The notes under the pieces were generated by a model. The model was not told the DNA's origin, did no database searches, and saw only the letters and a program-made list of their open reading frames with translations. The position numbers and the translations under genes are program-made. From positions 356,501 to 420,500 of the forward strand of contig CAJHZI010000684.1 of assembly GCA_905160935.1 (NCBI GenBank): a stretch of 64,000 nt of DNA, given 5' to 3'. The DNA comes from Enchytraeus crypticus. Its lineage: Eukaryota > Annelida > Clitellata > Enchytraeida > Enchytraeidae. Positions 12,555-62,114 of the stretch are shown here, piece by piece (within the stretch, counting starts at the first letter, position 1; each line of letters starts with the position of its first letter).

Positions 12555-13220
12555 AGAGCTTCTGTACTACGTAGTACTATAGGGGTTGTACTACTGTAGT
12601 AGTATAGGGGTTGTACTACTGTAGTACTATAGGGGTTGTACTACTGTAGTACTATAGGGGTTGTACTACGTGGTACTATAGAGGTTGTACTGCTGTAGTA
12701 CTATAGGGGTTGTACTACTGTAGTAATATAGGGGTTGTACTACTGTAGTACTACAGGGGTTGTACTATGTAGTACTATAGGGGTTGTACTACTGTAGCAC
12801 TATAGGGGCTGTACTACGTAGTACTAGAGGGGTTGTACTACTGTAGTACTATAGGGGTTGTACTACTGTAGTACTACAGGGGTTGTACTACGTAGTACTA
12901 TAGGGGTTGTACTACTGTAGTACTATAGGGATTGTACTACTGTAGTACTACAGGGGTTGTACTACGTAGTACTATAGGGGTTGTACTATTGTAGCACTAT
13001 AGGGGCTGTACTACGTAGTACTATAGGGGTTGTACTACTGTAGTACTATAGGGGTTGTACTGTAGTACTACAGGGGTTGTACTACGTAGCTGCCTACTAA
13101 TAATTCTATACTAGTACTATAGGGGCTGTACTACTGTAGTACTATAGGGGTCGTACTACTGTAGTACTACAGGGGTTGTACTACGTAGTAATATAGGTGT
13201 TGTACTACTGTAGTACTATT
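12555..13220. repeat. 25-bp array GGGGTTGTACTACTGTAGTA
   Basis: About 26 copies. Each unit has the inverted repeat GTACTAC-TG-TAGTAC or, in variants, the perfect palindrome GTACTACGTAGTAC, so every unit can form a hairpin. Confidence 0.93.
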
Positions 13221-17996: not shown

Positions 17997-18631
17997 ATGG
18001 CTTACGACTATCAGAAGAAATACTTCTGTCCACGGCTGTTGGATTACGTAATGATCGTGGGGTCCAGACATCCCAATAGAAACAACTCCGTCGCTCAGAC
18101 ACCAGAGTTGCTCCGTAGATATCCCCTCGAGGATCACAAGGACTTCCCACTTCCACCGGACGTCGTCTTTTTCTGCCAGCCCGAAGGATGCATCAGCGTC
18201 GGTCCAAAAAGAACGAGTCTCCGAGAATCGACCTCTTTTGTATTCATGCTAACAGAGAAAGACACCGGTCGGACTCGATACGGGATTTGTATAAATTTTT
18301 ACCGCCCGTTTGAAAGACGATCAGGGGGAGGTAGTTCCCCTGGGGGGCCTCGACGCTCCCCCCGCCCCTCTCAGAGCTCGGAGGCGGCTGAGGGCTCCCT
18401 CAGGCCCCCGTCTCAGAGCGAAGACGGGAGATTGACGACCCCGCGATCAAGTCGTCGTCTGAAGACGTCGGGCAGGCTGCGCAACAACACCCTGACGTCT
18501 CTGTGCATCCTCAGTCATCACCCATTCTTCTCCACCTTCAGAGAGTGTTTGCTCGTTCTCAGGCGCTTCATCGACGCGTGTACTGAGAGGTCTGCCAGCA
18601 AGAGAGTGGGCGGGTCAAGAGCTGGGTCGAG
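17997..18631 (+). CDS. MADD: MADD exon 1 (start codon, u-DENN)
   Basis: Residues 1-212. The start context AGAAATGG is good and the protein begins [17 protein letters not shown], matching the family N terminus. Carries the u-DENN signature [14 protein letters not shown] and [11 protein letters not shown], then a Ser/Pro/Gly-rich insert (about 105-155) before [19 protein letters not shown]. Donor TCGAG|GTGTGTGAG leaves two bases of an Arg codon. A CT-rich array begins within about 15 bases of the donor. A CAG stands two bases before the ATG, so a 5' UTR exon or trans-splice acceptor may precede it. Confidence 0.93.
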
Positions 18632-18680
18632 GTGTGTGAGCGAGTCTCTCTGTCTCTGTCTGTCTCTCTCTGTCTCTCTG

Positions 18681-18724
<44 letters not shown>

Positions 18725-20533: not shown

Positions 20534-20571
<38 letters not shown>

Positions 20572-22254
20572 GCATCTTTCTGTATGTCACTCTATTTGTC
20601 TTTGGCTCTCTGTCTTTCTCTATCTCTATCTCTCGCTCTCACTCTAATGCATTTAAATTATGGTATATATATAAAACTACAACATTTCGGTACAAATTTT
20701 AACATCAGTCAGCTTTCACACTCTCTCTATCTCCCTCTTTAATACAAAATAGCGAATCGTATATCAACGTAAAACCGTTTTTCAAACTAATTTCTCATAG
20801 AGATCTTTCGGAACAAGTGTCGTGTCACTACCCGCTATTTCACTCTCACTATCGCGCCATTGCCTACTCTAGGAACAAATGAATCTTGCTGCTGATAGCA
20901 ATGTTGTTATTTTGTTATTAGGAACACTGTATGAAGTGTTGACGCCGATGATAGCAATGTTGTTATTTTGTTATTAGGAACACTGTATGATGTGTTAAAA
21001 CTGACAATAACAATGTTGTTATTTTGTTATTAGGAACACTGTATGATGTGTTAAAACTGACAATAACAATGTTGTTATTTTGTTATTAGAGACACTGTAT
21101 GGTTTAACATTGTTGATGGTAACAACATTGTTATTTTGTTATTAGGGACACTGTATGGCGTGTTAACACTGCTGATGATAGCAATGTTGCTATTTTGTTA
21201 TTAGGGACACTGTGTGGCGTGTTAACAGTGTTAATGTTGTTATTTTGTTATTAGGGACACTGTGTGGCGTGTTAACAGTGTTAACGTTATTTTGTTATTA
21301 GGGACACTGTATGGCGTGTTAACAGTGTTAACGTTGTTATTTTGTTATCAGGGACACTGTGTGGGGTGTTATGACTGGACTGATAACAGACAGCTGTCCC
21401 AATGTCGTCATGCATGACGTCAGAGACATAGAGACCTGGATACTACGTCTGCTCAGCGCTCCAGTGCCTGTGCCTGGAAAAACCAGAGTGGAGGTAAAAT
21501 AGTCCCGCACTTCTCCATGTTATTTTTACAATTTAGTTCATTAAGTTTAATTGTTACACTGAAGGTTAAAAGAAGTCTTATTATATTTATCATATCATGA
21601 CTATAGTATAGCTGTGTCCAAGGTGGTGATACATTTTTTAATTTTTTTATGATATTTTTATTGATGGTATCGTTTTAGGGCACTAAGATATTTGTGGTGA
21701 TATATTTGATGCTAGTATTGTAGTTAGTGTCAATAGATTTATCACAGACGCTTTGAATGTAATAAAAGGTACGTAAATCTTGTATCAGAGCTTGCTGCCG
21801 ATTGGCACTATCTATAGCAAAGATATGATTAACCATGGAAAGGATTAATAATAACCTGCGAAGAACCTGTAAAGCGGTCTCGAAATCCGGACACCGGCCA
21901 TGACACCGCTATATAAATTGTCGTAGGCTATTATTATTGTTATTACTGTCAACTTTCACTGGTATAATATTAGTTAATACTAATGTTAACACTCTCATGT
22001 TAACTTATATTGCTAATAACATTTACTGTTAGCCTGTTAACTCTGCACAGCTGACCATCCTACCACCCAGCCTGCACGCTCCCATGCTGTTCGCTATGCC
22101 TGATCACACCCGCTTCTCTCTCGTCGACTTTCCTCTACACCTTCCACTAGAGCTGCTCGGCGTGGACACCTGCCTCAAGGTACTCACCTGCATCATGCTC
22201 GAGCACAAGGTCAGCCTTCTCCTTCTTCATATCTAATGTTTAATAATAATAGTA

Positions 22255-22288
<34 letters not shown>

Positions 22289-25200
22289 TGATGATGATGA
22301 TGATGATGATGATAATAATAATAATAACAAAAATAATAATAATAATGATGATGATAATGATGATGACGATGATGATGATGATAATAATAATGATGATAAT
22401 AATAATAATAATAATAATAGTAATAATAATAATATTAATAATAGTAATAATAATAATAATAAAGGTTTAACGTTCGTTTCCTCATACAATAATGATGTCA
22501 GGGACTTCCCTCATCAGATATCACTATAAATCGATTCACCCCAAACTATCTGAAGAAATATATGATGAAGAGAAAGAAAAAGATCCTAAACGGTGCCGGT
22601 CCGGTAATCAAAAATGCTGTTAACATGCAATATAGTATATCCCCTTTTGTGTCCGGGTTGTTTGAAGAATAGACCAACCGGTGACTGTTCTTTTCCTAGT
22701 AGGCGACTAAAGCACTGAGATACAAACTTGCGTCGGAAAGGGCATTCGGTTTGTGAGCGCCTGTGCTCTAGAAATTTCGACAAAATGTTATAAAAAGAAT
22801 AGAAGAGATTATAGGAAGATTGACTGACTGTTTGGTAGGCCTATGGGACTGAGTGAGTGGAAAAGTGCTATTCGTATCCCGACCCTGGTTTAACTGTGGT
22901 TCAATGGAAGAAGATGATGATGTTGAATAGAGCAAATCATGCAAAGGCATTCTATACATTACAGTAATTACAGTAAAACAAGCAGTATACAATAAGATGT
23001 GCAAAATAACAAGCTCCATAATATAAAAAATCGTATACGTAACATAGCTTAAATGTCAAAATCTCAGAGATATTAAAATGGTTAGCGAGTAGAATTTACA
23101 GGAAAGAAGTATTCTAACTTTTATATTCTTAACTAAAGTTCTGATTTTTTAATTAAAATTTCTTTTTCTACTATTAAGTGTATTAAACGTTTGAACATAG
23201 AATATAATATAATATAAAAATTATTATAAATATTATTAGAATATATAAAATAATATAATATACTATTTCTAATTTTAAAGAATGCATTGGAGTACATATC
23301 AGGCAATGTATATGAGTGTACATCTACGGTAAAGGTTATTAAATAAAAATCGTAAAGGTTATATACAGTAAAGGGTAGCAGTTATTAAAGTAATTTATTT
23401 AAAATATATTAATAATATATATAATAATAATAATATATATATATAATAAATAATATATATTTATAATATATATTAGTTACTGGCTATAAAATATATTAAA
23501 GCTATTAAATACATTACTGCTATTACGTGTATAAAGCTCTTAAATGTTGGTGCTCTTTCTTTCTTTTGTCCTTGAAGCGACTCAAATTTCTATTTTATAA
23601 GTTGAACATCTACAAATGGAACCCAATTTCGCCATCATTTATACTATTGCACCATAAATTCTACTATTATATATGTAAAAAAGCTGGCAACGCTAATGTT
23701 AACGTCGGATATAAAGATATTAAGAAAATATATTCGTGCTGCTCGCATATTAAGTCTAATCATAAAACTAAGTTTTTAATTTTAGTTCTTGTATCATTAG
23801 ATACCAGTGACCATCTAATAAAATGTCATAATAGGCCTAATCCTTTATAATTCCTTTGTCATTATATTTTTGGTGTTTTAGTATTCTCCTAACTTACATT
23901 CTTTCCCACGTTATTACCGAGCATGCTGCTGATTTTTATATGCTGAAGTGATGATTAAAATGGCGTAAGAAGAATCAAATCGAAAATGACGACTGTTAAT
24001 TTTTAATTAATAAAGTATACAATTCAATAAAAATTGCAAATACATGTATATCGGGGATATACATGTATTATTAACGGGTATTATTAATTATGAGATAATT
24101 AATTTTTATCAGAGTTTATATTTTAAATGAATGCAACTATAACTGCTTTTTGTTTTTTGCTTATTTATTTTTGTAACATTAATTTTCGTGCTATCTATTC
24201 ATCATCATCATCTTCTTCCCTTCTACTCCCAGCTTAAATAGGGTCGGGATTACAAAATTTGTAGCAATTTCTGGAGCCTAGGCGCTCACCATCCATCCGA
24301 ATGCTCTTTCGGACGTAGGTTTGGATCTTAGAGCTTTGTCGCTCCTTACGACACGTTCAGCCCACGGTAGGTCTATTCGTCAGCAAATTTTCTTACCATC
24401 TATTACAGATAATAATCCAATCACGTGATTACAATGCTCTGACTATGAGTGTGATGGCCTTGGTTTCGATGCTGTATCCTCTCGAGTACATGTTCCCCAT
24501 CATACCACTTCTGCCAACCTGTATGAGCTCTGCCGAACAGGTTTCGCTTTATTTCATTACATTTATTTCTTTATTTCTATTTATTGATAAAACCAAAACG
24601 ATTTTAAGATCATGTACAGTTCACATAAATGTAAATATAACGTAAATGTTAGAAAAATTACAATCATTTGATTTAATTGTACGAAAAAGGATCTTTAAAC
24701 GAAAATGATTTAGTGAGTTGTAATTCCTATTATTCAAAAGTTTAAATTTGAAAATGTAAACTTCGCCATGTTGTCAAGACACGACTATTTTCTCTCTTTC
24801 TTATTGCACTGCCTACTGGCAGGTCCGTGGTTTATAATGCCTCCACCCATCTCTATCTTCCGTTTTCGTCTTCATGTCCACATATGAGTGGGTCTTTAAA
24901 TCATATATGGCATTCCTTATTGACATACCATTATTATCTACCACTATTTTACTTAATAGGAATAAAAAGTATGATTTGGTACTTCTTTCGTAGTAAAGAT
25001 CTAAGTGAATCATAAGATAATAGCAAATATAAATAGAAGGTTAATATTGTTTATTTGATCAAATGTTCTTATAGAATTTACATTAAGTTGTGGTATTTGT
25101 AATCTTACTTTGCTTATTACGCTTACTATTGTTGATGATAAAAACACGGTGATTATACAGGAAGTATCAACATGTTTTATTGATGGTGTTTTTGATACTT

Positions 25201-28200
25201 CGTTGATTTTCAGTTGCTGCTGGTACCTACACCGTACATCATAGGAGTGCCATCGAGTTTTCTCATCTACAAGAAAGGCTTTCACCTCCCTGACGATGTA
25301 TGGCTTGTGGATCTCGACGCCAACAAGGTACCAGAGAATCAATCATTTATCTTAATGAGAATCAATCAATAATCTTCCCGAGAATCAATCAATAATCTTT
25401 TATAGAATCAATCTATAGACTTCTAGAGAATCAATAAATAATCTTGTGATTCTTCAATCAGTCATACAAACAATCAGTCATACAAACAATCAGTCAAGCA
25501 GACAATCAGTCAAGCAGACAATCAGTCATACAAACAATCAGTCATACAAACAATCAGTCATACAAACAATCAGTCATACAAACAATCAGTCAAGCAAACA
25601 ATCAGTCATACAAACAATCAGTCAAGCAGACAATCAGTCATACAAACAATCAGTCATACAGACAATCAGCCATACAAACAATCAGTCATACAAACAATCA
25701 GTCATACAAACAATCAGTCAAGCAGACAATCAGTCATACAAACAATCAGTCATACAAACAATCAGTCATACAAACAATCAGTCAAGCAGACAGTCAGTTA
25801 AGCAGTTATAACTCCACCCCTCTATTACTATACATGGAATGTTTCAGGTAACTTCATCCCCTATATGATTATATTTGGAATGTTTCAGACAACTCCTCCC
25901 CCTATATTACTATATATGGAATGTTTCAGATAACTCCTCCCCCTGAGGAATCCGAGATCCCTGAACTACCAGAACCCGAGGGCACAGTGCTGAAAAACCA
26001 CCTCAGACAGGTTTAATCAAATCAATCAATCAAATAATTAATAAATAGATAATCAATCGTCCCATAAGACGCTACTGAACAGGAACTCACGAAGGCAAGG
26101 AGAAATCTCTCCAGAAGCCTTATTTTTCCAAATTATGGGCTACATTAAGTTGTGGATATGGCATAGTCTATTATGAAGGAATGGACTTGTTGATCAATTC
26201 AGTGCCAGTTCTGTAGTTTAAACGCAGACTGTGTATAGAAATATGTTCGTTAGATTTGCCCTTTCAAGAGCACTAGAGAGATATAGAGATGCGATATAAT
26301 TATAAGTATTAGTTATTAAAAATGATCGTAATCCTCTGGATAATGATCATCTGCAGTATGATCTTCTTGAAATTCAAACCGATTAAACAGAAGCAGAACT
26401 GAAGTAATTTGTATAATTCAGATTCTGGGAGAGAGATGTGACTCAGACTACGTAGAATATTATATCAGTGAGGTTTGAAGATACCCGGCAATTTTTTTCT
26501 CTTTGCAAATATTTAAAATTAACGATTTTGCTGTTATAGAAAGTTTTAGACACATTTAACATTACTAGTAGAGCATACTGTTTGCTCCAACTCTTGGTTT
26601 ATAAATTGATTTTTACGATTATGCATGTCGGAATTCAATGTGTCATGCTTAATGACGGTATCAAACCGTATTATTGCTAACGGGGCTTCTTATATTATGC
26701 CACTTCTCATTGAAGCTGTTTTCTACATTACATGTCTGAAATTTGTCATTAATTTTCTGTTTTTGAATGTTTTTTATTTTTCATATTGTAGGAGATAATT
26801 GATTTTCTTGTCGTTGTTTAAATGGATATAATTCATCCCAAAGCATGTCAAATTTGTTAGTGATGGCCTTGTTTGCCGAAATGACTTTTGCTTTATAGAT
26901 ATTATGTTTATCGTTATATGCAATGCTAAAATTATAGATGCTTCTATTTAGAGGTAATACCAGTTAAATATTATTTATATTAATTTAGGTGGGGTCAGTT
27001 AATTAACTAGTACATTGTAAAACAGCACTAATGCTTATCAATCTATTGATTGAACCTCTTTTAGAAGATCTATGGCACAAATATCGTATGGTGGCCATAT
27101 ATTCACCATCTCGCTCTTTTGAGCGCTCCATCGATCAATCCATGAAGTTGATCATAAATAAGGAAATATAGACCTTTCAGAGTTTAAGAAAAAAATAAAC
27201 TCTTTTACATTTGCTCTTTAATTAGTAAACATATTTATTAACCAATAGGTCCATTATTATAATTCGTATAATTAGTTGTGTAACAAATCAATGATAAATT
27301 GCTTAATTAATTGCTTAATTAGTTACGTAATTAACAAGTAAAGTGTTATGTCTTATAGCTATACGACGAAATTAAACAATCTAAAGTAGGTATTATCTTA
27401 TTCTCCTTCTCAGTTAACTTCCCTATTTAGCAGTCTGAATATCAGAATGGTTCAATTCTGTTTCTCCGTACTAACCTTTTTTAATATACAGCATCTATGC
27501 CTTCATGCCTAGGCTCCAAATTTTCCATGTGTCTTTTAAGATCAAAACTATGGGTATTGTAATGTTATTTTTAATTTCAGTTTTTCTAAATCGAGCTATA
27601 TTCTAGACTCTAAAGGTGTTGGAAATTTATAAATTACTTATAATAACTAGAAATTTATGTTGTATTTGTTATCAATTTTTTACTGTTCATTGATTCAGTT
27701 TCGCCTTTGAGTTTTGGTGGAAGATAATCGTCAGCGAGTTAACCAGCAGAGTATTAATAGTATACTTTAGAACTTGCAATAAATAATTATTGTATAACAG
27801 GTGGTGAAGGTTTTTCTGAAACATCTTCTTGCATATATTCAAATTCTCATTAGAAATCGAATCCTATTTTTCGCTTTGTTTTGGAGTTTGCGTGATATAA
27901 TAATGTTATATTCACGGTACTTTTGAATGTCAGACTAAGTAGATTGTAAACTGGTAACTGAAACCATTCTGAATATGAATCCATTAGTTGATCATAATTA
28001 TTTAATTATTCCTCATTATATTCTTACAATTTTGTTTACTATATTCTTCATTCTATGAAGGCTCCATTTTGTCGAAGCTTACTTCTGCATCTCGGTTGTG
28101 GTGAGGCTTTATTTGAGCCACGGATAAAATAAGACTTGAGGCTTTTCTAAGGAAGGTTAACATGTGACATTTTTGTGATGATAGCCAGCTCTTTAGTGCA

Positions 28201-31200
28201 GTTGTCGATAGGCTGACAGGATATTGTTTAATTGAGATGACGTCACCTGACATCATCCTTGTATGAGGAAACGGACGTTAAACCTCTATTATTATTATTA
28301 TTATTATTAATTCTGTACTTAATATCTCTCATCACGCTATGTTTTCTCTCGTGCCACCACTGAAGACAAATAATAGTCGTCATAAACTTAGAGATAGAGC
28401 CAATCCTTTTATGCTCCCTCTTAAAACTGCAGACTATGAGTTACAATGTCTTCTATTAATTAAATTTCTGATTGATATTATATAACTGAGTATTTACCTG
28501 TGTTTATCTGTATGTATCTGTATGTGTTTTCCCAACTGTGTGAGATTTCTGAGTTCTGACGTATTGCAAAAAAAATGTAATAGTTTTTGCATCTGATTAA
28601 TTCGTTTTTTAGGAATGCTCGACATGCCCAAATTGTTAGTAAAATAATCCGTGACTCCTTTATTCAGAATTAACGAGTTTTCTGAGGGTGTTTTTTATCC
28701 GTATTTTACTCTTGATTATTTTAGTTGACACGTTGGTTCCTTTCGCTGTTAAAGAAATACTTCGATAGCCTTAACGTAATAATTTGGTAGTATGATTCAT
28801 ACTTCCATAATTACATGTATACTTCAGTTGTCATAATATTTCCATCTCTATTGTCTCTGATAATTCCTTTATCATGTTAATTCTTTTGTCGTAATAATTA
28901 TTTTTTCATTATAATTTTTATCATGATTGTACTATCGTCATGATAACTAAATCGTCATGATACTTCTATTGTCATGATTTAATTTGATATCTTATTATGA
29001 TATTTTATTATTACTAAGGACGCGGTGTTTAAGAAAGAAGTGAATAATAGGGGATTGATTGATGATATGGTGTGGGTCAGGGAGACAGGAGAAAGTCTAT
29101 TCGTATCCCCACCCTAGTTAAACTTGAATTCAGAGGAAGATAATAATGATGATGATGATGATGATGATAATGATGATGATGACGATGATGATGATGACGA
29201 TGATGATAATGATGATGATCATGATGATGATAATGATGATGATGACGATGATGATGATGACGATGATGATGATGATGATGATGATGACGATGATGATGAT
29301 GATGATGTTATTATTATTATATATCTCAGTATTTTGTGTTTAATGACTCAGGCCCTGTCCAGCATGAGTATGACCCCTCAACCCATCATGAACCTCGATA
29401 CGATGGCTCAGAACCCAGTGGTTGAACCACGACCACGACCCGACCTTGTCTTTACTAATAACGGCTTCAACCCACTCATATTCGGCAATGACGTCGACTC
29501 GGTTGACATAGCAACGCGGGTTGCCATGGTGAGTAAGTTTAAATGTTGTTTTGATTATGGATGGGTGTGTATTGGTTTTATAGAAACCTTTGAGCGTTAC
29601 GTGAACTGATATTTCGCAATCATATATTACTTATTAGCAATATGTCTCACAGTGTATATTTACAAGCCATAGTGTTTCCCGTGTTGTGTCCGGTACACTG
29701 AAGAATAGACCAATCGTTTACTGCACGTGTCGTAAATGGTGAAAAGTATAAACTAAGGAATGCAACGATACACCACCTGAGAAGCAATATTATTCCCAAG
29801 CTCTAGGTTACATGAGATAAGACATAATGTATGGGTAATTCAAAGCCCTTTGTGAAAGGATCAACTGGTTGATCTATGGAGTGTTCTATATGGAGCTCAC
29901 AGGAAGACTCGTGAGTATGAATATGTGCCCGGGACCTGCCGCTTGGCCGAACACTAGATAGGGAGTGTGGAAGAGAGTTTACTGTTGGGGATATACCTGG
30001 TATGTTTTGTAGGTGCGGTTCTTCAACTCTCCAAACACTCTGGGTAACTTTGCGGAGCACACAAGAACGCTTCGACTCTATCCCAGACCAGTGGTAGCCT
30101 TTCAACTCAATAGCTTCATGAAGTCCCGCCCCGTCAAATCATCCTTCTCAGCCAAACTCGCAAAAACTCAGGTTAAATCTTTCTCTTCATCTCTTGAATT
30201 GCTTTCATATTGTAATTTTGTCAGCATCGTTTTCCCTTGAATCTTCCCCGTGTTGTGTCCGGGTTGTGTGAAGAAATGACCAACTGGTGACTGCAGGTGT
30301 CGTAGGAGGCGACTACAGCACTAAGTTCCATGTCAACATCAGAAAGGGCATTCGGTTGGTGATCGCCTAAGCTCTAGAAACTGCTGTATAAATTTAAACG
30401 AATGGAGGGAGAAGTCTCAAATAGGGGATCAAATATATTGAAGTTTCAAATAGGGGATTGACTGATGATATAATGTTATGATGTAGGGCAGAGAGCATTT
30501 GAGACAGTCTGTTTGTGTCCCAACCATAGTTAAACTGTGATTCAAGGAAAATGATGATTATGGTGTCTTCCCTTGAATCTCAATTTAACTATAAACTCAA
30601 TTTAAATTCTTCTAAATGATAATTGACTTTAGATATTTTCTGATTGGATATTCTTCAGGCGGTGGAATACTTCGTCGAGTGGGCGCTCAGTCCCACAAAC
30701 GCTGTATTCCTCCGCGTGCAGACCGGTGTCTACGACCCACTGCTGATTGGTGACAAGGCCAAGTGGTTCAGCCAGTCACTGCAGAGGATCAGCTTCAAGG
30801 TCTTCTCGGAGGCGGAGTCTACACTGGGCGCAGCTGTGGAAGCTTTCAACGAGGCAAAACCCGTCGAGGAAAACCCCACTGGTGGGTAGGATTGTACCCT
30901 ACTGGTTCCTACTAGTACTGAATCTTACTGGTGGGTAGAATTATACCCTACTTGTTTCTACTGGTACTGAATCTTACTGGTGGTTGGATTGTATCCTACT
31001 GGTTCATACTGGTGTTGAATCATAGTGGTGGTTGGATTGTATCCTACTGGTTCATACTGGTGTTGAAGCTTACTGGTGGTTGGATTGTATCCTACTGGTT
31101 CATACTGGTGTTGAATCTTACTGGTGGTTGGATTGTATCCTACTGGTTCCTACTGGTGTTGAATCTTACTGGTGGTTGGATTGTATCCTACTGGTTCCTA

Positions 31201-32415
31201 CCGGTGTTGAAGCTTACTGGTGAGTAGTTGGGTGTAAATTTTTATCAACCCACATGACAATTATACAGATTACTAAAACTGGAAAATTAGTTGGCTGTAG
31301 TGTGTTTCACGTAAATTTTCAGAAGCTCTTGGCTTCTCTACAAGACGACTCAACTGACTCTAGCTACCATCAAGAAGATTAATTAAGGCTTATTAGTTAA
31401 TACAGACTTGGGCCTACAGAGAACACATCAATTTAGCGCTGAGCAAGAAATGGAATTATTTATGCCACTACGGGTTTTTTCAAGACTAAATATAGCTTGT
31501 GGGTTTTCATAAGGATAAATATAGCTTGTGGGTTTTTCACAAGACTAAATATAGCTTGTGGGGTTTCTCGAGACTAAATATAACTTTTGGGTTTTTGCAA
31601 GACTAAATATAGCTTGTGGGTTTTCACAAGACTAAATATGGCTTGCGAGTCTTCCTATCCTGCCATAACGATGAAAGATTTGCTATTCACTGCGTGTTTA
31701 GCTCGATTTTAGAGACATGTGTGACACTAGAAATCATATTAGCATTTGGATTATAACTATATTATATCGTCCTGTACTCTACTCTGTACTGTACTGCAAT
31801 GTACTCTACTGCACTCTACTGTACTGTACTATATTGTACCGTACTGTACTGTACTGTTATCCTGTACTGTACTGTACAGTACTATACTGTACTGTGCTTT
31901 ACTGTACTATCCTGCACTGTACTGTACTGTACCGTACTGTACTGTACTGTTATACTGTACTGTACTGTACAGTACTATACTGTACTGTGCTTTACTGTAC
32001 TATCCTGCACTGTACTGTACTGTACCGTACTGTACTGTTTTGTGCTGTAGATGAGAGTGGTAGTGACAGCGATGGCGCTGAGAGCACAAGCTCTTCCTAC
32101 TCTTCTCTCAGCGACTTTGTGCTCGACATACAGAACAGTGAGATCAATGGCGACACCCCGGGTAGCTCTCTCTCTGTCTGTCTCTCTCTCTTCTCTGTCT
32201 GTCTCTTTCTCTGTCTCTCCCTGTCTCTTTCTGTCTGTATCTCTGTCTGTCTGTCTCTGTCTCTCTCTCCCTCTCTGTCTGTCTCTCTCCCTGTCTGTCT
32301 CTCTCTCTCTCTCACTGCCTATCTAGCTCTCTCTCTCTCTCTCTATCTCTCTCTGTCTATCTCTCTCTCTTGCTCTTTCGCTCTACATTTTTATCTCTCT
32401 CTCTATTCTCTACAT

Positions 32416-32486
<71 letters not shown>

Positions 32487-34754: not shown

Positions 34755-34812
<58 letters not shown>

Positions 34813-40800: not shown

Positions 40801-41831
40801 TTACTGTCATTAATTGGTTAATTATTTCAGATAACGTTTACCAAACCATACTATAATGTTTATTATAGTATGGTTTGGTTACCTAAACTATAGATGTTCA
40901 ATTTGAACGTTGTTGAAGAGAAATGACTTTAAATCGTTTTCATTGCTTGATTGTCTGTATGATTTAATATGACAAGTGCTTCCGCAATTATTCTTCAACG
41001 CTGCGTGTTATTTAATAGCATCGTCATCATCATCTTTCCTTGAATACCAGTTTAACTAGGGTCGAGATACGAATAGACCTTCAAGTTTCCATTTGTTTAC
41101 ATTTTTGCAGCAATTGATGATTCTGACTGATTCACAAGAACTCAGAGTGATAATTGATGATTCTGTCTGATTCACAAGAACTCAGAGTGATAATTGATGA
41201 TTCTGTCTGATTCACAAGAACTCAGAGTGATAATTGATGATTCTGTCTGATTCACAAGAACTCAGAGTGATGATTGATGATTCTGACTGATTGATTAATT
41301 GATTTGATTGATTGATTGATTGGTGAAAGTGTTGTTGTTGAATAGGCGACTCATTGAAGAACAGGCTGGATGATATAAGCGATGTCGTGACGGAAAACAT
41401 GCGAGAAACAGGTACGACAAATGACTTCATGAATAATAATAGCATAATAAAAACAATTAGAGTGCTACAGTCATCAATGACAACATCGAGCACTATTGAG
41501 ACAAAATCAAGCCGGCGAGCAAAAAGAAGGTCCAAAAATGGTGCAAATTTCAAAATCCAGAAATTCAGTCCAAATGAACTCTGTAGTGCTCGATGTTGTC
41601 TCAAACAACTCTAACATCGTCCTATATACTACTATATATGGGCCATTTGATGTTCGTATACATTGTTTTTTAATGCGCAAGAATTGTTACAATCTAGAGT
41701 TGAACTGCGCATGATATGTAAATTGCAGTAATTTTAAAACTTAAGAATGTTTAGCTAAATCCATGGACTGCTAAATATATACTATGCATATTGCCATTTT
41801 ATCATTATTATTATATTATATTTATTAGTGG

Positions 41832-41909
<78 letters not shown>

Positions 41910-44900: not shown

Positions 44901-47900
44901 TGGTTTAACGTGCAGGTAACAGAAAGGCCCTGGTGGAGAAGTCAGGACTGGTGCGCCAGTCAGCCACAGCTGGTGGAGTCACCTCCAGGGGCTCTACGAG
45001 CAAGGTCAAGGACCTGCCACGTCAACCTTCAGCCAATGAGCAGAGGTCAAACGCTCGAAGGTCAAAGAAAACCTTCTGAGTTGATTTCTTCTTGTATATG
45101 TTTATAGCAAAGCTAATGTTAACGTCAGTTTCCTCACTCGAGAGCGATGTCAGTGACGGGAGAGCACAGGATTTGAACTCCGCACAAACTGATCCGCGGT
45201 CTAGTGTCTTGCCCACTTCGCCACTGGCTCTAGCCACATAGATTCAATTATATTTAGATCAATCATAGATCAATTATATTTACATAGATTTTACATAGAT
45301 TATCTCAATAGCTTAGTGGTTAGAGGCGTCAGGTAACTTACTGAAGTCTTACATGACAGATCCTGAGGTGTATTGAACTCTCGTGGGTTCGATTCCCGGC
45401 CACGCTGATCTGAGAGTAAAATCCAGTACATTTACAAGACTGGATATACGGAAAATGGACTAAATTGTCATATGGTTCTATTATTGGATATTAAAGGTGA
45501 TAGATATCAACTTAGTTGAAAATTTTACCTTGGTTAGTTATATGTATTTGTTGGAGAGTTGTAGATACGTGGTTATTAACTGTCTGATGATATACGGAAT
45601 ATCAGTTATATATGCTGTATAGAGAAAAGCATGATTTACTCAATGATAACATTTTTAACTCCAATGGCAATTATTTAAATTTTGTGAAAATATTTTTCGG
45701 CAGAATATGTGTATTGTCTCACACCGTTGGCCTTTACTTAAATTTTACTGTATGTAATATCAACGCTTGAATATATTAAGTCTCAGCATTGAAATTTTTT
45801 TAATTCAAATTTTACTTTAATACAAATATTTCAGATTTTAATTCTAGCTTAGATTATGATTAAAAATTGAATTTAAATTCCATTTAGACTTTTACAGAGG
45901 CAACTATAGCTCGAAAAAATCCAGGAATTAAACTTTAATCTACAAAATGGTGAGTGTCTCTCTGTTGTATCTGAACTAAGTTTAACATTTTATCTACAGT
46001 GAGAATCAGCAGTTCTTGAAAGAAGTGACCACCTCTATCCTGGAAGGACGAGGGATCGGATGGTTGAAGTTGGGACGCGTGAAGAAGCTGATGGAAGACG
46101 AGAACTACCGGAACCTCGTCGTGAGTCGTCTCAATACAACACTCGACAAGAAACTCTCTGATGACAGTGCTCACCTCGAAGATGTGGTCAGTATCATTTA
46201 TTTATTTATTTATCTATTTATTTATTCATCACATCATATAAAATTCTGACGACGACAATTCTACGACGACAACAGATGAAGTTTTTCGGACACATTATGC
46301 AGAATATTGTTATTTATTCCTCTGTTGATTTCCTTATGCGAAATAAATTGTTAATTAGTTTATTAGTATCATCATCATAATCATCATCATCATCATCATC
46401 ATCATCATAATCATCAACATCATCATCATCAGCAGCAGCATCCTCCCTTGAATTCCAGTTTAACTAGGGTCGGGATACGAACAGACTGTCTCAAATCCTC
46501 TCTGTCCTACACCACATCCCCAGCCAATCCCCTATTTACTACTATCCCCTATCCCCTATCCTACTTTATTATAATTTTTTAATATAAGAAAATGAAGAAG
46601 AACAAACTACTTTTACAAGTATAGATTAAAATATAGAAGTAAACTTTACAAATACTTCATTTATTTATTTATTTATTCATCACATAATATACAATTCTGA
46701 CAAAGCATATGTGCATGCACACAGAAAGTTCAATCATGTGATCGGTAATAAAGGCCGTGACGGCACTAACATATACCGGTTGTTCAATTGATAAGAGTAA
46801 AGGGCAACAGCAGCGACTAAAAATAAAACAAGTAGTTAAGGATATTTCATACAATATAAACGTTTAAAAATATAATAGTTACAAAATGTACTAGTTAGAA
46901 AGAAAAGAAAATCTAGCTTCGAAATCAATATTTGCCATAGATCGATGTATTCAGTTTATTGTCTAGATTTGATTCATGATACCGACATGATAGTAGCGTA
47001 ATAGTATCATAATAGTGACATGGTTTGCTGTAGAATAAAGTAGAAGGAAGAATGCAAGAGAATCGGGTTAGAGGAAGATCAATACATGCGATGGTTGATG
47101 ATTTGATAACATGTTCATATATTGAAATGAAAAAGAAGGCTGAGGATAGAATTGGTTGAAATATTCCACGGATCTGCCTTTAGCCAGTACACTATTTAAT
47201 TGAGCCATTGAGCAGTGGTAACGTCATGAAGTTTTAAATGACGGATCCTGAGGTGAACTGCACCTTCGTGGGTTCAAATCCCAGACGCGCTGATCTACTA
47301 TTTACTGAGTGTAAAATCTCGGACATTCACTGGACTGGTCATACGGAAAATGGTCTAAATTGCCTAACGGATGAAACATGTGGAATTAAAAAGTGATAGA
47401 TGTCAACGTAGTTGATTATTCACTATAATGCGTGTTTACTTAACTGGAAGACGACTATATCGGGAAAATTCTCATTGATATAAAGTCGTTCTTGCTTTAC
47501 TCTTTCAGGCCGTGTCGAGGCCGGTCTTCAAGGGTATGTTACAGATGATCAAGGCTCTGATAGCCGGGCTGGAGCACACCTATCAGTCCCAGGGCTCAGG
47601 AGGAATGGCCTCGGCTCTGATGATCCTTGAGATCATGCACACCCACTACTGGGAGAAAGAGAGTGCCAAGAGTGAAGCCAACAACCAGTCACTGGTTTGA
47701 GTCGAATTAAAGCTGGTAAAGCTAATGTTAACGTCAGTTTCCTCACTCGAAAGCGATGTCAGTGACGGGCGAGCCCAGGATTTGAACCCCGCACCTACTG
47801 ATCCGCGGTCGAGTATCTTACGGACATTGCCACTGGCTCCAGTCAGTGGCGATGTCGGTCGATGTCGATCCAAACAACAATCTAGCAAAGATATTTGAAT

Positions 47901-50900
47901 CATTCAAGCAATAATTCGATTAAGCAATCAATTTAACAATCGATCAATGAAATGGATTCTATAAGGCAATACATCTACTAATCAATCAATTATTTTCATC
48001 AGTGATATGGATTCAAACATTCAATAAATCTACTAATCGACCAATCAGACAGTCAGTTACTGATTTGAATCTAATAAATATATCAATCGATAAAGATCTG
48101 TAATATTTCGATTTTGCCACTGATCGATTACTTTCTCTCAGACAAAAGCCGATCGTGATGAACTACTGAGTTACGACAGAAAGAATTTAAAGAAATGCGG
48201 ATTTAATGAATATCGAAGCTCCAATACTTTGTACCACCTACTGTATATGTTTGCTCTTGATAAATTATCCAAGATAATAGTTTACATGTCTTTCAAACTT
48301 GTTTATACGCTTTAATGCTTATATTTTATAGTAATTTAGTAATCACATGAAGCCTGTTGCACTAGCGGGATCTCATGGGTTATGTTTGATGGGTTATGTT
48401 TGATGGGTTATGTCTGATGGGTAATGTCTGATTGGTTATGTTTGATGGGTTATGTTTGGTGGGTTAGGTTTGATGGAATATGCCTGATGGGTTAGGTGTG
48501 ATGGCTATGTTTGATGGTTATGTTTGGTGGGTTATGTTTGATATGGGTTATGTTTGGTGGGTTAGGTTTGATGGTTATATTTGATGGGTTATGATTAACT
48601 TAGAGTAAGCAAGTGGAAGATCGACTTACGAATCAATCGTTACAGGGTTTAGAACCTTTCTGGTTCTCCGGTCACTGATGTTCTTCTGAGAAAAGACCCT
48701 GACTAAGCTGTTCAGTTGTTAAAGTACATGTATAAAGAAGCCTACTTGCTGTGTAGGGTGGCTCTACATACGGCAGCAACGAGAGCCTGTCTTCAGCCGC
48801 TGCTGACTCCAAGGCAGACAGTCGCAGTCTGCAGGAGGAGCACATGGCAGCCGCGCTCGGTCAGTACTTACAAGTCGTGTACGTGTCGGTAGCTCACATT
48901 GTATATATTATTATGCAATAGAATCAGTTGTGAAACTGAAATTATACTTATTTGAGTTACGATATTTGTATTTAGGTCTGCAACGTTTTAAGAGTATGAA
49001 TTAATTTCCGCATTTATTATTAATGGTGGATTGTCGTCGCGGATTTCCACTCGTCTTTTTGAGGTTGAGGATAGCTAGTCGGCTAAATTAGCCAGAAAAT
49101 CTACACTGATTTGCGTTGCTGTGGAGGCAGAGGGTTGAGGAGGCTGCTCTGGTGTCCACCGAGTGACGTTACGCAGAGTACAGTAGCAGTATCTCTCTCT
49201 TCAGTGCACTGCCAAGTGGCAGGTTCAAGGTACATATTCATACTCCAAGTCTGCTTTCTCGCTCCATAAGGAGCACTCCTTAGATCAACAAGTTAATCCC
49301 TTCACAAAGTCTATGCCTTATCTATACCATATGTAGCCTATAGCTTGGGAAAAATATGGCTTCTGAGGTGGTTTCTCGTTGCCTTCCTCAGTTAGGTGGA
49401 TTAATTACCATTTAATACTGGGGGAAAATATTTCATGGTGAGGTGGGTCCCCTCTTACCATCCTCAGCTCCTGCCTTTAGTCGCCTCTTACGTACACGCG
49501 GCAGATTGTTTGCGGTTGCCCAATTCTGAAGTGGTCCAACCACACCCGAGCACAACACGGGGAAGTAGCAGTATATCTTCTATACATTATCACACTAATT
49601 ATGTGTTTTTGGTTCAAATTATTATTACTAGTATTAAATTATAATTAGTAGTATTTATTATTAATAATGTAATTTCTTTGGTTCTGTACGATAATTCTCT
49701 CCTAATGTACTGCCTACTGGCAGGTCCATGGTATATAACGCCTCAACTCTTCTCTGTCTTCCGCTTTCCTCTTCATGTCCAGACAGGAGTACGATAATTA
49801 TTAAACTAGAATTTATTTCTTTTAGCCTATTTATATTTAAATTATGTTTGAATTTACCACATAGATTATCATAACTATGGTGCAATTTGAGAACTAATAT
49901 TATTACTAATAATAATATTACTACATTAATTATAATATTATTACTAAAAATATTATTATTACATTAATTATAATATTATTACTAATATTATTATTAATAT
50001 TAATAGAACTAAGATTAGTTTTTTGTGTTGGGGGTAGGACACGCCCAGGCCTGGCAGATCGAGGCCCCCCCAGTGTCACGAGGTGGGGGTTTCTACGCCT
50101 CCTCGTCCTCTAGTCTTACTGAGTCAGGTCTGCGATTTGTTTCTGTGTAGTGTATCACTATTTGATGAACATATGTAGTCTTGTACTCATGGCCATTGTC
50201 ATTTATAAGTTTCCTGGCATATTAAGAGGCAATTAATATGCAAGGCAGGCAATCTATACATATGATCAGTCAGAGATGGTGTAGTGTATCGCTACATTTG
50301 TAACATTTTATTGTATTTATTTTAATCGTATATTTATAATTAATTTAAATTTTATTACTAATTTTAATTTTATTGTTATCATTAACTAATTAGTAAATTT
50401 TGTATTTCGGACCATAGCATGTATTTACAATAGTCTTCTGTGGAGGCACAAGAACGTATTAATAGAAATAGCAAATAGGCATATAGGCATATATAGGCAC
50501 ATAGGCATATATAGGCAGATAGACATATATAGGCACATAGGCACATGATGGTTACATTAAGGGCTATTACTATATATTAATATATTCAGTATAAAATAAT
50601 ATAGCAAAACAAATGTAGTTAAAATAACAAATGTAGCTATAATAACAACTGTAATTACACTAATAAGTATAATTCTAATAACAATTGTTATTACAATAAC
50701 AAGTGTTTTTACAATAACAAGTGCAATTACAATAACAAATGTAATTACAATAACAAGTGTTATTACAATAACAAGTGTTATTACAATAACAAGTGTAATT
50801 ATAATAACCAGTGTAATTCTAATAACAAATGTAATTACCATAACAATTGTGATGATAATTACAAAAGTAATTCTAATAACAAGTGTAATCATAATAACAA

Positions 50901-51817
50901 TTATTATTACAACAAATATTCAGATTCGGCAGTTGTCGTCAACGGAGAGGAATTCGAAACTCTAGAAAGCAAAGGAGAACTACACGAGTCCAACCACCCT
51001 GCTGACGCTGATCGAGGCCACACGGCTAAGCCTGCTGGAGGAGGGCCAGCAGCGTTACGACACGATCAAAACCCCGAGGGGGAATGCCCCCCCGGGAAGG
51101 GGCGCGTCCCCCCAGGGGTGGCCCAGGCCGCCACGGGCCTCCACTGCGCCTCAGCGGGGGTTCTGAGCGACGGGAACAGGGATAGCTCGGGGTACACGAG
51201 CGAGAGTGGAGATATGTTGAGAGAACTGGTGAAGAATAAAGAACTACTGGCGGCAGATAAACGAAAGAACTTGAACAAGATCGGTTCCATGGACTCTGAC
51301 CTGTCTGATTCCAGTATTATGGTAGGGATTGATGAGCGGTTTAGTTATGATATTAGTTGAGTAATTGATTATTTAATTAATCTTAAACGTTTAGGTATAA
51401 TTTATGAATTGGTCTTTGTTACTGTTAGTCATTTATTAATCAGTTACATTTATTTTCATTGATAAGTAGATGGTTTCAGGTTCATCGGTTTCTTTGTCCC
51501 TGACATCATCCTTGTATGAGGTCACGGACGTTAAACCTTTATATTAGTATTATTGTTTGCTAGATTTGATTTAAGACGGGACTGCTGACGATGTTGTCAT
51601 GGACGACAGTAGCACTCTAATGTGATGTTTTGATAGACTAGCACGGCTAGACGTAAGAGAAGCTCTGTGGGACTGCTGATAGTCAAGAGTTCACTGAGTG
51701 CAGGCTACAGGTACAGAGAGGGTCAGATGATGAACCTGGGTCAACCAGTGCAAGAGTGTCGCCGTAACTATCTGTATGAACAAGTAGTAGGTACGTCTGC
51801 TTATCTGTCTGTCTGTA

Positions 51818-51863
<46 letters not shown>

Positions 51864-51899
51864 TCTCTGTCTCTATCTCTCTCTGTCTATCTCTCTCTG

Positions 51900-51933
<34 letters not shown>

Positions 51934-53802
51934 TCTGTCTCTCTCTCTATCTCTCTCTCACCCTCTCTGTCTCTCTCTCTGTCTCTCTATTTCTGTCTCT
52001 CTCTGTCTCTCTCTCTCTCTTTCTCTGTCTCTCTCGCTCTCTCTCTCTCTATGAGAGATTTCAATTTTATTTTCGCTCATTGCATTCTGTGTAGCTTGTG
52101 ATGTTTGTGTGCAGTGAAGGACAGGTCGCCTTTATGGGATCAGATACAGTTCTGGGAGGATGTATTCCTGGATGCAGTGGCGCAGGAGAGAGACATTATT
52201 GGCATGGATCAGGGTCCCACGGAAATGATGGATAGGTAACTAAATTTACAAATAAAATAATAATAATAGCAACAACAATTAGAGTGCTACAGTCATCAAT
52301 GACAACATCGAGCACTATTAAGACAAAAACAAGCCGGCGTCCAAAAACGGTGCAAATTCCAAAATCCAGAAATTCAGTCCAAACTTCCTCTCGCCGTCAT
52401 TTTTGACACTAAAATTGGTTGGTGTCCTGCTCGATGGCCTTAGGGCTTCTCAGAAAGCCACAAACCATTGCTCACTGTCTCAGTTTGTTGTATACTGTTA
52501 TGTTATTGTTCTGTTGTTGTGTTATTGTTCTGTTGTTGTGTTGCTGTTGTGTTGTTGTGTTGTTGTTCTGTTGTTGTGTTGTTGTTCTGAAGCCAGTGGC
52601 GATGTCGGTAAGATACTCGACCGCGGATCAGTATGTGCGGGGTTCAAATCCTGGGCTCGCCCGTCACTGATATCGCTTTCGAGTGAGGAAACTGAAGTTA
52701 ACAGTAGCTTCATTGCTATGTTTTATTATTTATTGTATCTGTATTGATTGTATTGTATTGTATCTCATAGTATTTGTATTATATCTATTGTAGTGTATTG
52801 TATTTGGTGGTATCTGACAGATACAAGTCGCTGAATGAGGGAGACAGAAAGAGGCTAGAGCACGATGAAAACAGACTGCTTGTATGCTTGTGTAGTATCT
52901 CATTGTATTTGTATTGAATATCGTAGTATTTATATTGTATTGTATCTGACGGTATTTGACAGATACAAATCACTGAACGAGGGAGATAGGAAGAGGTTAG
53001 AACATGATGAGGACAGACTGCTCTTATTGTATCTCATAGTATTTGTATTGTATCGTATTGTATCTCATTGTATCGTATTGTATTGTATCTAATGGTATTT
53101 GACAGATACAAGTCGCTGAACGAGGGAGATAGGAAGCGGCTAGAGCATGATGAAGACAGACTGCTTGTATTGTATCTCATTGTATCGTATTGTATTGTAT
53201 CTGATGGTATTTGACAGATACAAGTCGCTGAACGAGGGAGATAGGAAGCGGCTAGAGCACGATGAAGACAGACTGCTGGGCATAATGCTCTACAACATGA
53301 TCGCCTTCATGATCATGACTCGAGTCAACAAGAACGAGATTAAGAGGAAGGCTCGGAGACTCCTCGGCAAGTGCCACATCGGTTTAGTGTCTAGCCAGGA
53401 CATTCATCAGCTTCTAGATCTCGTTGGAAACCTAGTGCGTAGCTTTCTCTGTCGTATCTATCGTATTGTATCTGTATTCTTTTTCTTTATCTGCTTTAAT
53501 CTACTCATACGAACACGTGCTGCGTTCGATTGATCTAATCCCAGTAGTCGGATTAAACACTAGAACGCGGTTTACTTTATTTTGCTGATGCAACTCTTAT
53601 ATTTATGTAGATGATAGTTCATTTATGCTCAACAGTGATTTATATCATGAACTTAAATCATATTTGAACCAGTGAGCTAACCTTTATAAATTAACAAAAC
53701 TACTTAATTAAATATCGCTATATACTAATTGATAGCCAAGGCCAATGAAATTGCTGCAGAATTTTCTACGTCCCAACCTAGTTAAACTGTGATTCAAAGA
53801 TT

Positions 53803-53872
<70 letters not shown>

Positions 53873-56800
53873 CGATGATGATGATGATTACGACGACGAC
53901 GACGACGATGACGATGATGATGATGAATAATTAATAATTAATCAAACCATAACTTAAATCTAAAACACCCTTTCTAGGTAGATTGGTTAAACGATATATT
54001 AAGTTACAGGGATGATAAGTAAGACTGTTATTAAAACTTGACGTCCCTGACATTGCCTTATGGCGAGGAAACGGACGCTAAATTCTTATTGATTGATTGA
54101 TTATACTGTCACAGCACGGTAACGACATCGACCTGAAGCCACTGGGGAGTCGACTAATGCAGAAACAGTCGTTCACTGTGCACTGGGGCACCGACAACAC
54201 TGGCGACATGCTCTTCATTGAGGTAAGATAGAGCTTATTCTTAATCTACCTCAATAATGTCTAAATGAATGTCTCAATAGCGTAGGGTAACGTCATAAAG
54301 TTTTAAATAACAGATACTGAAGTGATCTGAACCTCGTGGGTTCGAATCCTAGCCGCGCTGATCTGAGAGTAAAATCTCAGACATTCACTCGACTGGCTAC
54401 GCGGACAATGGACTAAATTGCCTAACGATTTAAAGATGTGGTATTAAATGTGATTGATATCAACATAGTTAATCATTTCACTATAGTGTGTCCTTGCTTA
54501 CTTACCTGTGACACTTGTATGATGCTATGTGTAGGTATGTGACGACTGTATGATGCTATGTGAAGGTATGTGACACTTGTATGATGCTATGTGTAGCTAT
54601 GTGACACTTGTATGATGTTATGTGTAGATATGTGACGACTGTGTGGTGTTGTGTGAAGGTATGTGACACTTGTATGATGCTATGTGTAGGTATGTGACGA
54701 CTGTATGATGCTATGTGAAGGTATGTGACGCCTGTGTGATGTTATGTGAAGGTATGTGACGATGTTATGTGAAGGTATGTGACGACTGTATCATACTGAG
54801 GAGTGTTAACGGAGCAGTATGTGACAGATACTGGTACGAGAAGCTCATTAACATGACGTACTGCCCCAGAACTAAAGTCCTCTGTCTGTGGAGAAAACAC
54901 AACGATAAAACTCAGCTCAACAAATTCTACACGCGGAAGGTACAGAATTTTCTAATTTCTAATGATTTCAAACAAAACAAACGCACGTGTTTACAGAGTT
55001 TACAAACTTGTGTTTACTGTAAAATCAGTTACTGTAAAATCAGTGTTTACAAAATTAAATAAATTAAATATCTCATGTTATTCAATTCAATATAATTCGT
55101 GAGTTAATTAACATAGCATCATTTCGCATAATCATTTAATCTTGTCATATAATCGCATTATCATAACTAAGTCATATCTGGGCGTTGTAACATTTAAGAA
55201 ATTGACGACAACTGCGAAAATAGTTTTATTTTTATTTTTAATTTTTTGAATTTAAATTCAAAATCTGTAATTTAAAATATATGTAACCTTCCACTTACAG
55301 TACTTGCTCTATCTTCATTTCTCAGTTTATCTGGAGATCAAGGAACACGTTCCTATAGTCCCTTTACTTGCGCTCAAATAGTATCAATTAGCCTACTCCT
55401 ACTTCGCAGGATTTAAATCTGATCTTAAAATCAATTAATGGCCCTAGTAACTGTTGAAATGCACAAATTAGAGAGTATTATAAACCGACTCACTTGACGA
55501 CTATTGACTTCGTGTGTCACATTTTACAGTTGTTAGTTATTTGTTGTGTTGTATAATTGTTGTAGTGTAAGGAGTTGTACTTCTGTGTGAAAGAATCCAT
55601 GGAGAAAGCTGCCGCAAGACACTCAGGGAAACTGCCAGGTCTGCTGTGTACTTGTTTCTGTAAAGATCTTATCTGTTCTGTTTACATATTATTTACAGTC
55701 GTTAGAAAATCTTACATAAAACATAGTAGTGTCATAACTTTGTTTTTTGTATTTTACTAATATTAAAAATCAATTAAAAAAATCGTAATGCAGTGACAGC
55801 AGTGAATCAGTCCTCTGCCATAGAATTGTGTTCCTCACTGGTGACGTAACTGATGACATCACTGATGACATCACTGGTGACATCACTGATGACGTCACTG
55901 CTGACATCTCTAATGACATCACTTGTGACTTCACTGGTGACATCACTGGTGACATCACTGATGACGTCACTGGTGACATCACTGGTGACATCACTGGTGA
56001 CATCACTGGTGACTTCACTGATGACATTTTGACATGAGTGCAGAGGCAGCTTTGTTTCGTCAAACAGTTTCGTTAAATCATAAGTCAAAAGGCTGGTAAA
56101 GCTAAGGTTAACGTCAGTTTCCTCACTCGAAAGCGATGTTAGTGACGGGAGAGCCCAGGATTTGAACCCCTCATATACTGATCCGCGGTCGAGTATAACG
56201 TCTAATATTCATTCATTCACTATTTCTCTGCAGCCGGTGCTGAGTTGGGTAACGAGTTTTCAGTTCAGGACTTGAAGACTGGTCAGACTGGAATACTGCA
56301 GGTCTGCATGGAGGGGATTGGACTCCTGTTTGCTAATAGCAAAGTAAGTTATAGGTGCTTTTTATTTAGTTATTTAAATGCTTCATTCATTTCACGCATT
56401 AGAGCTAGAAAAGTCTCACAATATACAGCAATTTACATGAAATGAAAAGGACAAAAAGGTCCGAAGACTAACATTTGCCCTAATAAGAGAATAAAATCAT
56501 AAAAGATTTAAACATCGTTACAATATCATAGCATTTACAACATTGCAACTTAACTTGATGCCTTGCATTAACTCATCATTCGCTGACATCATCATTGGTT
56601 TTTAGTTTCATATCGTTTACTTGTTCATCTCAGCACAGATTATACGAGCGATAGGAACGTGCATGTCATCAGATAAACAAACATTTTCAACATTAAAAAA
56701 AGTATAAAACGGACGTACAATCCATTAAGTTTGACTTGTTTTATTTTTCGGACTTGTTTTATTTCAAACGGACTTGTTTTAATTCAAATTAATATTTAGA

Positions 56801-62114: not shown

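Follow-up and report, generated by a model that had tools for sequence, protein, structure and literature searches.

Introduction

Lancelet genes contain so-called mirages, in which a minisatellite-like tandem duplication runs across an intron/exon boundary and supplies extra splice sites (PMC3087553). Cases described in the available portions of the reports include Adh3 and the globins BflGb6 and BflGb9 (PMC3087553), as well as PGBD5 and troponin C (PMC3902484). Haplotypes with 6 and 3 units have been recorded, and RT-PCR together with the Adh3 data suggests that mirages do not interfere with regular splicing (PMC3087553). Related events are known elsewhere: in the potato RdRp gene, a new intron arose from a duplication that ran over an intron/exon boundary (PMC4974935), tandem repeats at exon-intron boundaries alter gene structure in recent human duplicates (PMC2812944), and tandem duplication is counted among the demonstrated routes of intron gain in the accessible part of a review (PMC3443670). 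The earthworm metallothionein gene has intronic minisatellites and duplications of exon 4 that are absent from transcripts, and the available text of that report yielded no junction-spanning arrays (PMC12783039). Among the matches listed in the open-licence literature, judged mostly by title and opening, we found no junction-spanning arrays outside lancelets, potato and human, and none in annelids or other lophotrochozoans.

Here, we describe a window of 64,000 bp of genomic DNA (the whole stretch that was analysed) from the annelid Enchytraeus crypticus, in which the arrays of the gene MADD are a rich further case of the known mirage pattern, not a new kind of thing. As in lancelet mirages, whose units measure 10-160 bp in the available portions of the reports (PMC3087553, PMC3902484), MADD has units of 31 to 143 bp in 2 to 8 upstream copies, and its unit spans the boundary together with the splice site, clearly so at 4 of 32 acceptors. 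Acceptor and donor versions both appear in the parts of the lancelet reports at hand, whereas MADD shows clear acceptor arrays and a weak one at the donor of exon 9; MADD also differs in belonging to another phylum and in holding four clear cases within one gene (PMC3087553, PMC3902484). The boundary is crossed in MADD as in potato RdRp, an example of intron gain by tandem duplication (the Rogers model), but potato, as far as the accessible text goes, gained a new intron, whereas the MADD copies sit in existing introns (PMC4974935). Likewise, repeats in or at exons become spliced out in the human duplicates described in the available part of that study, whereas in MADD acceptor copies are stacked in the intron (PMC2812944).

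Results

Gene content of the window

We rebuilt MADD by eye and by reading frame as 33 exons at 17997..62114 on the plus strand, separated by 32 GT-AG introns and joined by a single open frame of 1,756 amino acids plus stop. The model is supported by this frame, by the introns, by Pfam domains (uDENN in the region of exon 1, the MADD death domain in that of exon 26) and by tblastn, which, against two nemertean proteins, returned matches for 25 of the 33 exons, three of them weak. Exons 11, 12, 14-17, 22 and 32 had no tblastn match, and their basis is frame and splice signals. The top-scoring named proteins are from nemerteans and molluscs. A quick tree of 33 proteins joined the window protein to one other protein (SH-aLRT 97) and then to the annelid Lamellibrachia (98); in the same tree the annelid Owenia was placed elsewhere, and the nearest by path were a chiton and two nemerteans.

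A second gene, the WW gene, lies on the minus strand at 699-11285 with seven in-frame exons inside the window. Two WW-like domains and the apparent start of a PH domain were recognised by eye, and we take the gene to resemble a Rho GTPase-activating protein. Intron 10 of MADD contains a broken non-LTR retrotransposon (32491-34754) with an (AT)n array on either side; none of the 42 matches to its reverse transcriptase stretch bears an animal name. Short dispersed repeats, forming 57 stretches window-wide, occur in both genes and between them. Some contain GGTTCRAATCC boxes, seen by eye, which are presumably tRNA-like; an ARAGORN scan of the window found no tRNA.

Arrays built across acceptor junctions in MADD

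At four MADD acceptors, the repeated unit contains the splice junction itself. The array at the exon 2 acceptor (20889..21388, plus strand; exon start 21352) has eight upstream copies of the junction, spaced by 47-59 bp and reaching up to 20 bases into the exon, while that at exon 6 (25808..25944, plus strand; exon start 25930) has two, at a spacing of 41 bp and taking in as many as 15 bases of the exon. Three upstream copies with 60 exon bases, spaced by 112-143 bp, precede exon 26 (52786..53277, plus strand; exon start 53218), and eight with up to 17 exon bases precede exon 28 (54507..54785, plus strand; exon start 54775), spaced by 31 bp except for a last step of 23. Counted with up to 6 mismatches in 20 bases and the AG kept, the upstream copies number 21. 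On the donor side, a 48 bp unit at exon 9 (30878..31222, plus strand; exon end 30881) includes the donor and 4 exon bases, and a GTGA-type array starts exactly at the exon 32 donor (61029..61114, plus strand; exon end 61028) with no exon bases. An earlier note on this DNA had spoken of five units that carry the splice site along with exon bases. Acceptors 2, 6, 26 and 28 are clear cases, and the fifth is the exon 9 donor with its 4 exon bases.

Two comparisons with controls set these junctions apart. We searched for each junction as a 24-base word (for acceptors, 10 bases of intron followed by 14 of exon; for donors, the mirror image), allowing up to 4 mismatches, within 3 kb. The words recurred at 4 of 32 acceptors (exons 2, 6, 26 and 28) and at none of the 32 donors, and the rest of the window held no further match. 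Control words from exon interiors recurred in 2 of 352 cases, both within the duplicated part of exon 26. In gapped alignments, the same four acceptors scored 51-78 against control maxima of 19-23, and two donors scored lower, exon 9 with 28 against a control maximum of 18 and exon 32 with 28 against 20. The acceptor of exon 14 and the donors of exons 8, 10, 11, 14 and 20 came out 2 to 4 points above all 31 of their controls, an outcome expected by chance for about one junction per side. The earlier note had proposed to count arrays whose unit aligns to the adjacent exon end; in MADD, the array is built from the junction itself, clearly at four acceptors and more weakly at donors 9 and 32.

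Chance placement rarely gives this outcome. Random founding of the 19 minisatellites of the MADD introns, a set that includes these four, would leave 0.44 acceptors and 0.42 donors straddled this far; at least four acceptors are straddled with P=0.0005, and at least four junctions of either kind (0.86 expected) with P=0.0105.

The copies also hold information on their origin. The point at which they depart from the exon is constant in two arrays, at base 20 in 6 of 8 exon 2 copies and at base 60 in 3 of 3 exon 26 copies, and is blurred by mismatches at exon 6 (15 and 6) and exon 28 (9 to 17); a constant departure point would suit a single founding duplication for each array. At exons 2, 26 and 28, the residues encoded by the copied exon bases are common to other animals, so the exon is older than the array there, while the copied residues of exon 6 are common to only one relative and give a weaker polarity. 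The units also reach back from the acceptor over 12-72 matching bases of intron, so the intron, too, predates the array.

A 49 bp array at 40172-40413, downstream of the 12-base exon 14, was not counted as built from a junction, because the exon 14 windows only narrowly beat their controls (25 against 22 and 24 against 22). Its unit carries an acceptor-like TTTCAG and may mark a lost or unannotated small exon.

Divergence of the exon 26 copies under coding constraint

The three upstream copies of exon 26 and the exon show 11 distinct differences over 19 codons, and 10 of these are silent, where a silent fraction of 0.22-0.30 is expected; 0 of 20,000 simulations reached the observed value at each of three transition weights. 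Nine differences, as read from the alignment, are private to the two outer copies, and eight of them are silent. The copies therefore changed mostly while coding, that is, they diverged under coding constraint. The other three arrays gave no such excess, with 1 silent difference out of 6 at exon 2 and 1 out of 5 at both exon 6 and exon 28. The silent excess at exon 26 goes beyond the published mirage cases compared here, as far as the available portion of the lancelet report goes, and MADD further differs from them in being known from one sequence (PMC3087553).

The likeliest account is that each exon 26 copy was once terminal and coding, and was moved inward by unequal exchange between alleles. 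That the copies instead served as mini-exons is less likely: three in-frame donor candidates (others exist) scored -2.3 to -1.7, below all 32 real donors, of which the minimum is 4.7. The motif was found doubled in 0 of the 101 homologues that carry it, among 120 scanned. The exon 26 copies allow the mode of array growth to be tested.

A probable origin by junction-spanning duplication

Taken with the lancelet precedent, these features make it probable that the four arrays are mirage minisatellites, founded by junction-spanning duplications and tolerated as extra copies that are spliced out. The sequence of the repeat units shows that, at acceptors 2, 6, 26 and 28, a tandem duplication at one time took in the last part of an existing intron together with the adjoining start of the exon, and the exon 9 donor is a weaker candidate for the same kind of founding. 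The unit may then have multiplied by slippage or unequal exchange, at exon 26 probably by exchange between alleles that involved the terminal, coding copy. The copies would remain intronic and the mRNA normal as long as the outermost junction copy is used, and for that reason duplications at junctions would be tolerated where duplications within exons are not.

Several observations fit this origin less well. Simple tolerance does not predict four acceptors against no clear donor, although with n=4 the imbalance may be chance. The silent excess of exon 26 has no counterpart at exons 2, 6 and 28, and an excess of plain arrays near junctions, described below, is left unaccounted for; the evidence, moreover, comes from a single gene.

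Tandem arrays near splice junctions

TRF returned 134 rows for the window, which we merged to 71 arrays covering 11,870 of 64,000 bp; 54 of these lie in MADD introns and occupy 8,478 of 38,847 bp. An array lies at most 40 bp from 18 of the 64 MADD junctions, namely 9 of 32 donors (exons 1, 3, 5, 9, 10, 16, 19, 24 and 32) and 9 of 32 acceptors (exons 2, 6, 10, 15, 18, 22, 23, 26 and 28). Four of the 18 are on exons that have no tblastn match (acceptors 15 and 22, donors 16 and 32). The WW gene has an array this close at two of its 6 acceptors, those of exons 3 and 4, and at none of its 6 donors.

Besides the donors of exons 9 and 32, the donor-side arrays, all on the plus strand, are (TC)n 13 bp after exon 1 (18645..18723), (TAA)n 31 bp after exon 3 (22241..22462), a 46 bp unit 3 bp after exon 5 (25331..25445), (CT)n 4 bp after exon 10 (32166..32404), (ATCA)n 10 bp after exon 16 (42870..43052), (ATTT)n 7 bp after exon 19 (46194..46230) and (TC)n 27 bp after exon 24 (51818..52050). 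On the acceptor side, likewise on the plus strand, (CTGTA)n ends 1 bp before exon 10 (31772..32049), a 40 bp unit array 23 bp before exon 15 (41112..41322), a TGATTGATTGAA-type array 15 bp before exon 18 (44615..44900), a further array 32 bp before exon 22 (49893..50005) and an 18 bp unit array 11 bp before exon 23 (50608..50912). The WW-gene arrays, on the minus strand, have an 11 bp unit 31 bp upstream of the exon 3 acceptor (8326..9109) and a 19 bp unit 28 bp upstream of the exon 4 acceptor (3262..3426). The earlier note had listed junctions with nearby arrays from inspection of the letters: TRF reproduced all nine of its donors exactly, eight of its acceptors and both WW-gene sites, while its exon 7 acceptor falls outside the limit, with (ATG)n ending 44 bp away (29146..29307, plus strand), and exon 22 had to be added.

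That arrays crowd the junctions beyond chance, as the same note had proposed, holds in MADD against three kinds of shuffling. With arrays shuffled within their own introns, 7.8 junctions are expected against 18 observed (P=5e-5); with arrays shuffled among introns, 5.0 are expected and 18 was reached in 0 of 5,000 runs; and with dispersed repeats removed from the null, 11.1 are expected (P=0.0027). These P values are optimistic, as the 40-bp limit was taken from MADD itself and is not independent of the data. The excess persists at TRF cut-offs of 30, 40, 50, 80, 120 and 200.

A split by unit length, made post hoc at the same 40 bp limit, divides the MADD intron arrays into three classes with different behaviour. 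Among the 14 microsatellites (units of at most 6 bp), five lie by donors (P=5e-5, or 1e-4 once dispersed repeats are taken out), whereas acceptors have none. Among the 19 minisatellites (units of at least 20 bp), seven lie by acceptors (P=5e-5, or 9e-4 once dispersed repeats are taken out); the two by donors are as many as chance predicts. For the 21 arrays with units of 7-19 bp there is no excess (7 against 5.15, P=0.15). Two class assignments are arguable, as TRF typed the exon 24 (TC)n as a 10 bp unit and the exon 10 (CTGTA)n as a 93 bp unit. If it extended genome-wide, the association of microsatellites with donors and minisatellites with acceptors would point to two separate processes, one at each end of introns.

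A bolder reading of this split, which we regard as possible but doubtful, is that minisatellites are preferentially founded at 3' splice sites and grown by allelic exchange, with microsatellites seeding after donors; the acceptor bias may then be general. If this were true, an intronic copy could be the fossil of a once-coding exon end, as at exon 26, and a splicing- or transcription-linked mutational process would be recording the history of exons in introns.

At the other extreme, the arrays might be ordinary ones in an array-rich genome, lying in once-short introns that transposons later lengthened, with no anchoring at junctions at all. We consider this unlikely, although some figures speak for it. 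Arrays cover 16.4% of the window outside MADD. Removing dispersed repeats lifts the expectation from the first to the third value given above and weakens P accordingly; the mask combines the one retrotransposon, delimited by hand, with the 57 stretches that emerged when the window was compared with itself, and it catches only repeats that occur twice in the window, so that the true expectation may be higher. When the six arrays that contain or start at a splice site are left out, 12 junctions remain against 6.8 expected (P=0.0115, repeats removed), an enrichment of about 1.8-fold for arrays without a splice site. The WW gene alone gives P=0.07 and 0.10 at 40 bp, which is not significant, and has no array within 20 bp. 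Ordinary arrays leave unexplained, however, why units should contain the splice site together with exon bases, and why microsatellites should sit by donors and minisatellites by acceptors, post hoc as that split is. The plain arrays beside junctions are a real but moderate excess in DNA that is filled with arrays (about a sixth to a fifth).

The earlier note had suggested that introns in this lineage grow by tandem duplication anchored at exon edges. This stands for four introns, and more weakly for two others, that have a junction-built array, but growth mainly from exon edges is not supported for introns in general: arrays make up 21.8% of MADD intron bases, against the 16.4% of the window outside the gene, and the intron length due to dispersed repeats, about 8.3 kb, comes close to the 8.5 kb due to arrays.

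Upstream copies as potential splice sites

A founding by junction-spanning duplication leaves each intron with spare acceptors, which we scored with a matrix built from MADD's own junctions. The eight upstream copies at exon 2 end in TAG, whereas the real acceptor ends in CAG. At exon 6, both upstream copies outscore the real acceptor, several do so at exon 28, and two equal it at exon 26. Acceptor strength alone fails to explain the choice of site, and these scores count against the explanation by spliced-out mirage copies. Use of any of the upstream acceptor copies is predicted to introduce a stop codon (21 of 21).

An AG|GT motif is present at the junction in 7 of 9 copies at exon 28 and 1 of 3 at exon 6, and in none at exons 2 and 26. 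At exon 28, these seven read AG|GTATGT, with donor scores of 8.7-9.2 against a gene median of 7.8, and a mis-splice there could be corrected by a second splicing step at the same site. The dual-specific AG|GT sites of human UBC are comparable, in that AG|GTATGT in the exon 28 array scores both as acceptor and as donor (PMC10809524). In the available part of that report, the UBC repeats are whole coding units, whereas those of exon 28 are short, intronic and known from sequence alone (PMC10809524).

One might suppose from this that the arrays are kept for splicing, whether as acceptor decoys or poison extensions, as pyrimidine repeats aiding donors, or as AG|GT sites for recursive splicing. The predicted stop at each copy and the high donor scores at exon 28 would agree with such a role, as would the composition of the arrays, 8 of the 54 in MADD introns being at least 75% pyrimidine on the sense strand and 0 of 54 at most 25%. 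The stops, however, are expected in any case from AT-rich, mostly frame-shifting extensions and are not evidence of selection, and at exons 2, 6 and 28 the copies have drifted free of coding constraint. We judge a splicing role to be improbable.

Discussion

Four clear cases in an annelid gene suggest that the mirage process is wider than lancelets. They also suggest that duplications across acceptors recur and are tolerated, lengthening introns and supplying spare splice sites. Two further origins for the duplicated junctions carry very little weight. Sequencing errors or unmerged haplotypes could have duplicated junctions in the assembly, and the last two exon 26 copies, 98% alike over the 112 bp unit, are what such an artefact might leave; other copies, however, mismatch the real junction at as many as 5 of 20 bases, their spacing is irregular, and one design is common to four separate arrays, which makes an assembly artefact highly unlikely. 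The birth of introns by tandem duplication of AGGT-containing exon DNA, which could draw on exon 28 beginning AAG|GTATGT and on the AG|GT within its unit, can practically be dismissed, since the introns predate these arrays, the units extend from the acceptor back into intron sequence, the donor of every one of these introns is separate and outside the array, three of the four arrays are without the junction AG|GT save for one exon 6 copy, and none of the four is a purely exonic duplicate supplying both splice sites.

The window also contains an intergenic array between the two genes, at 12563-13219, in which a partly palindromic unit of 25 bp (GTACTAC and GTAGTAC) is repeated in about 27 copies.
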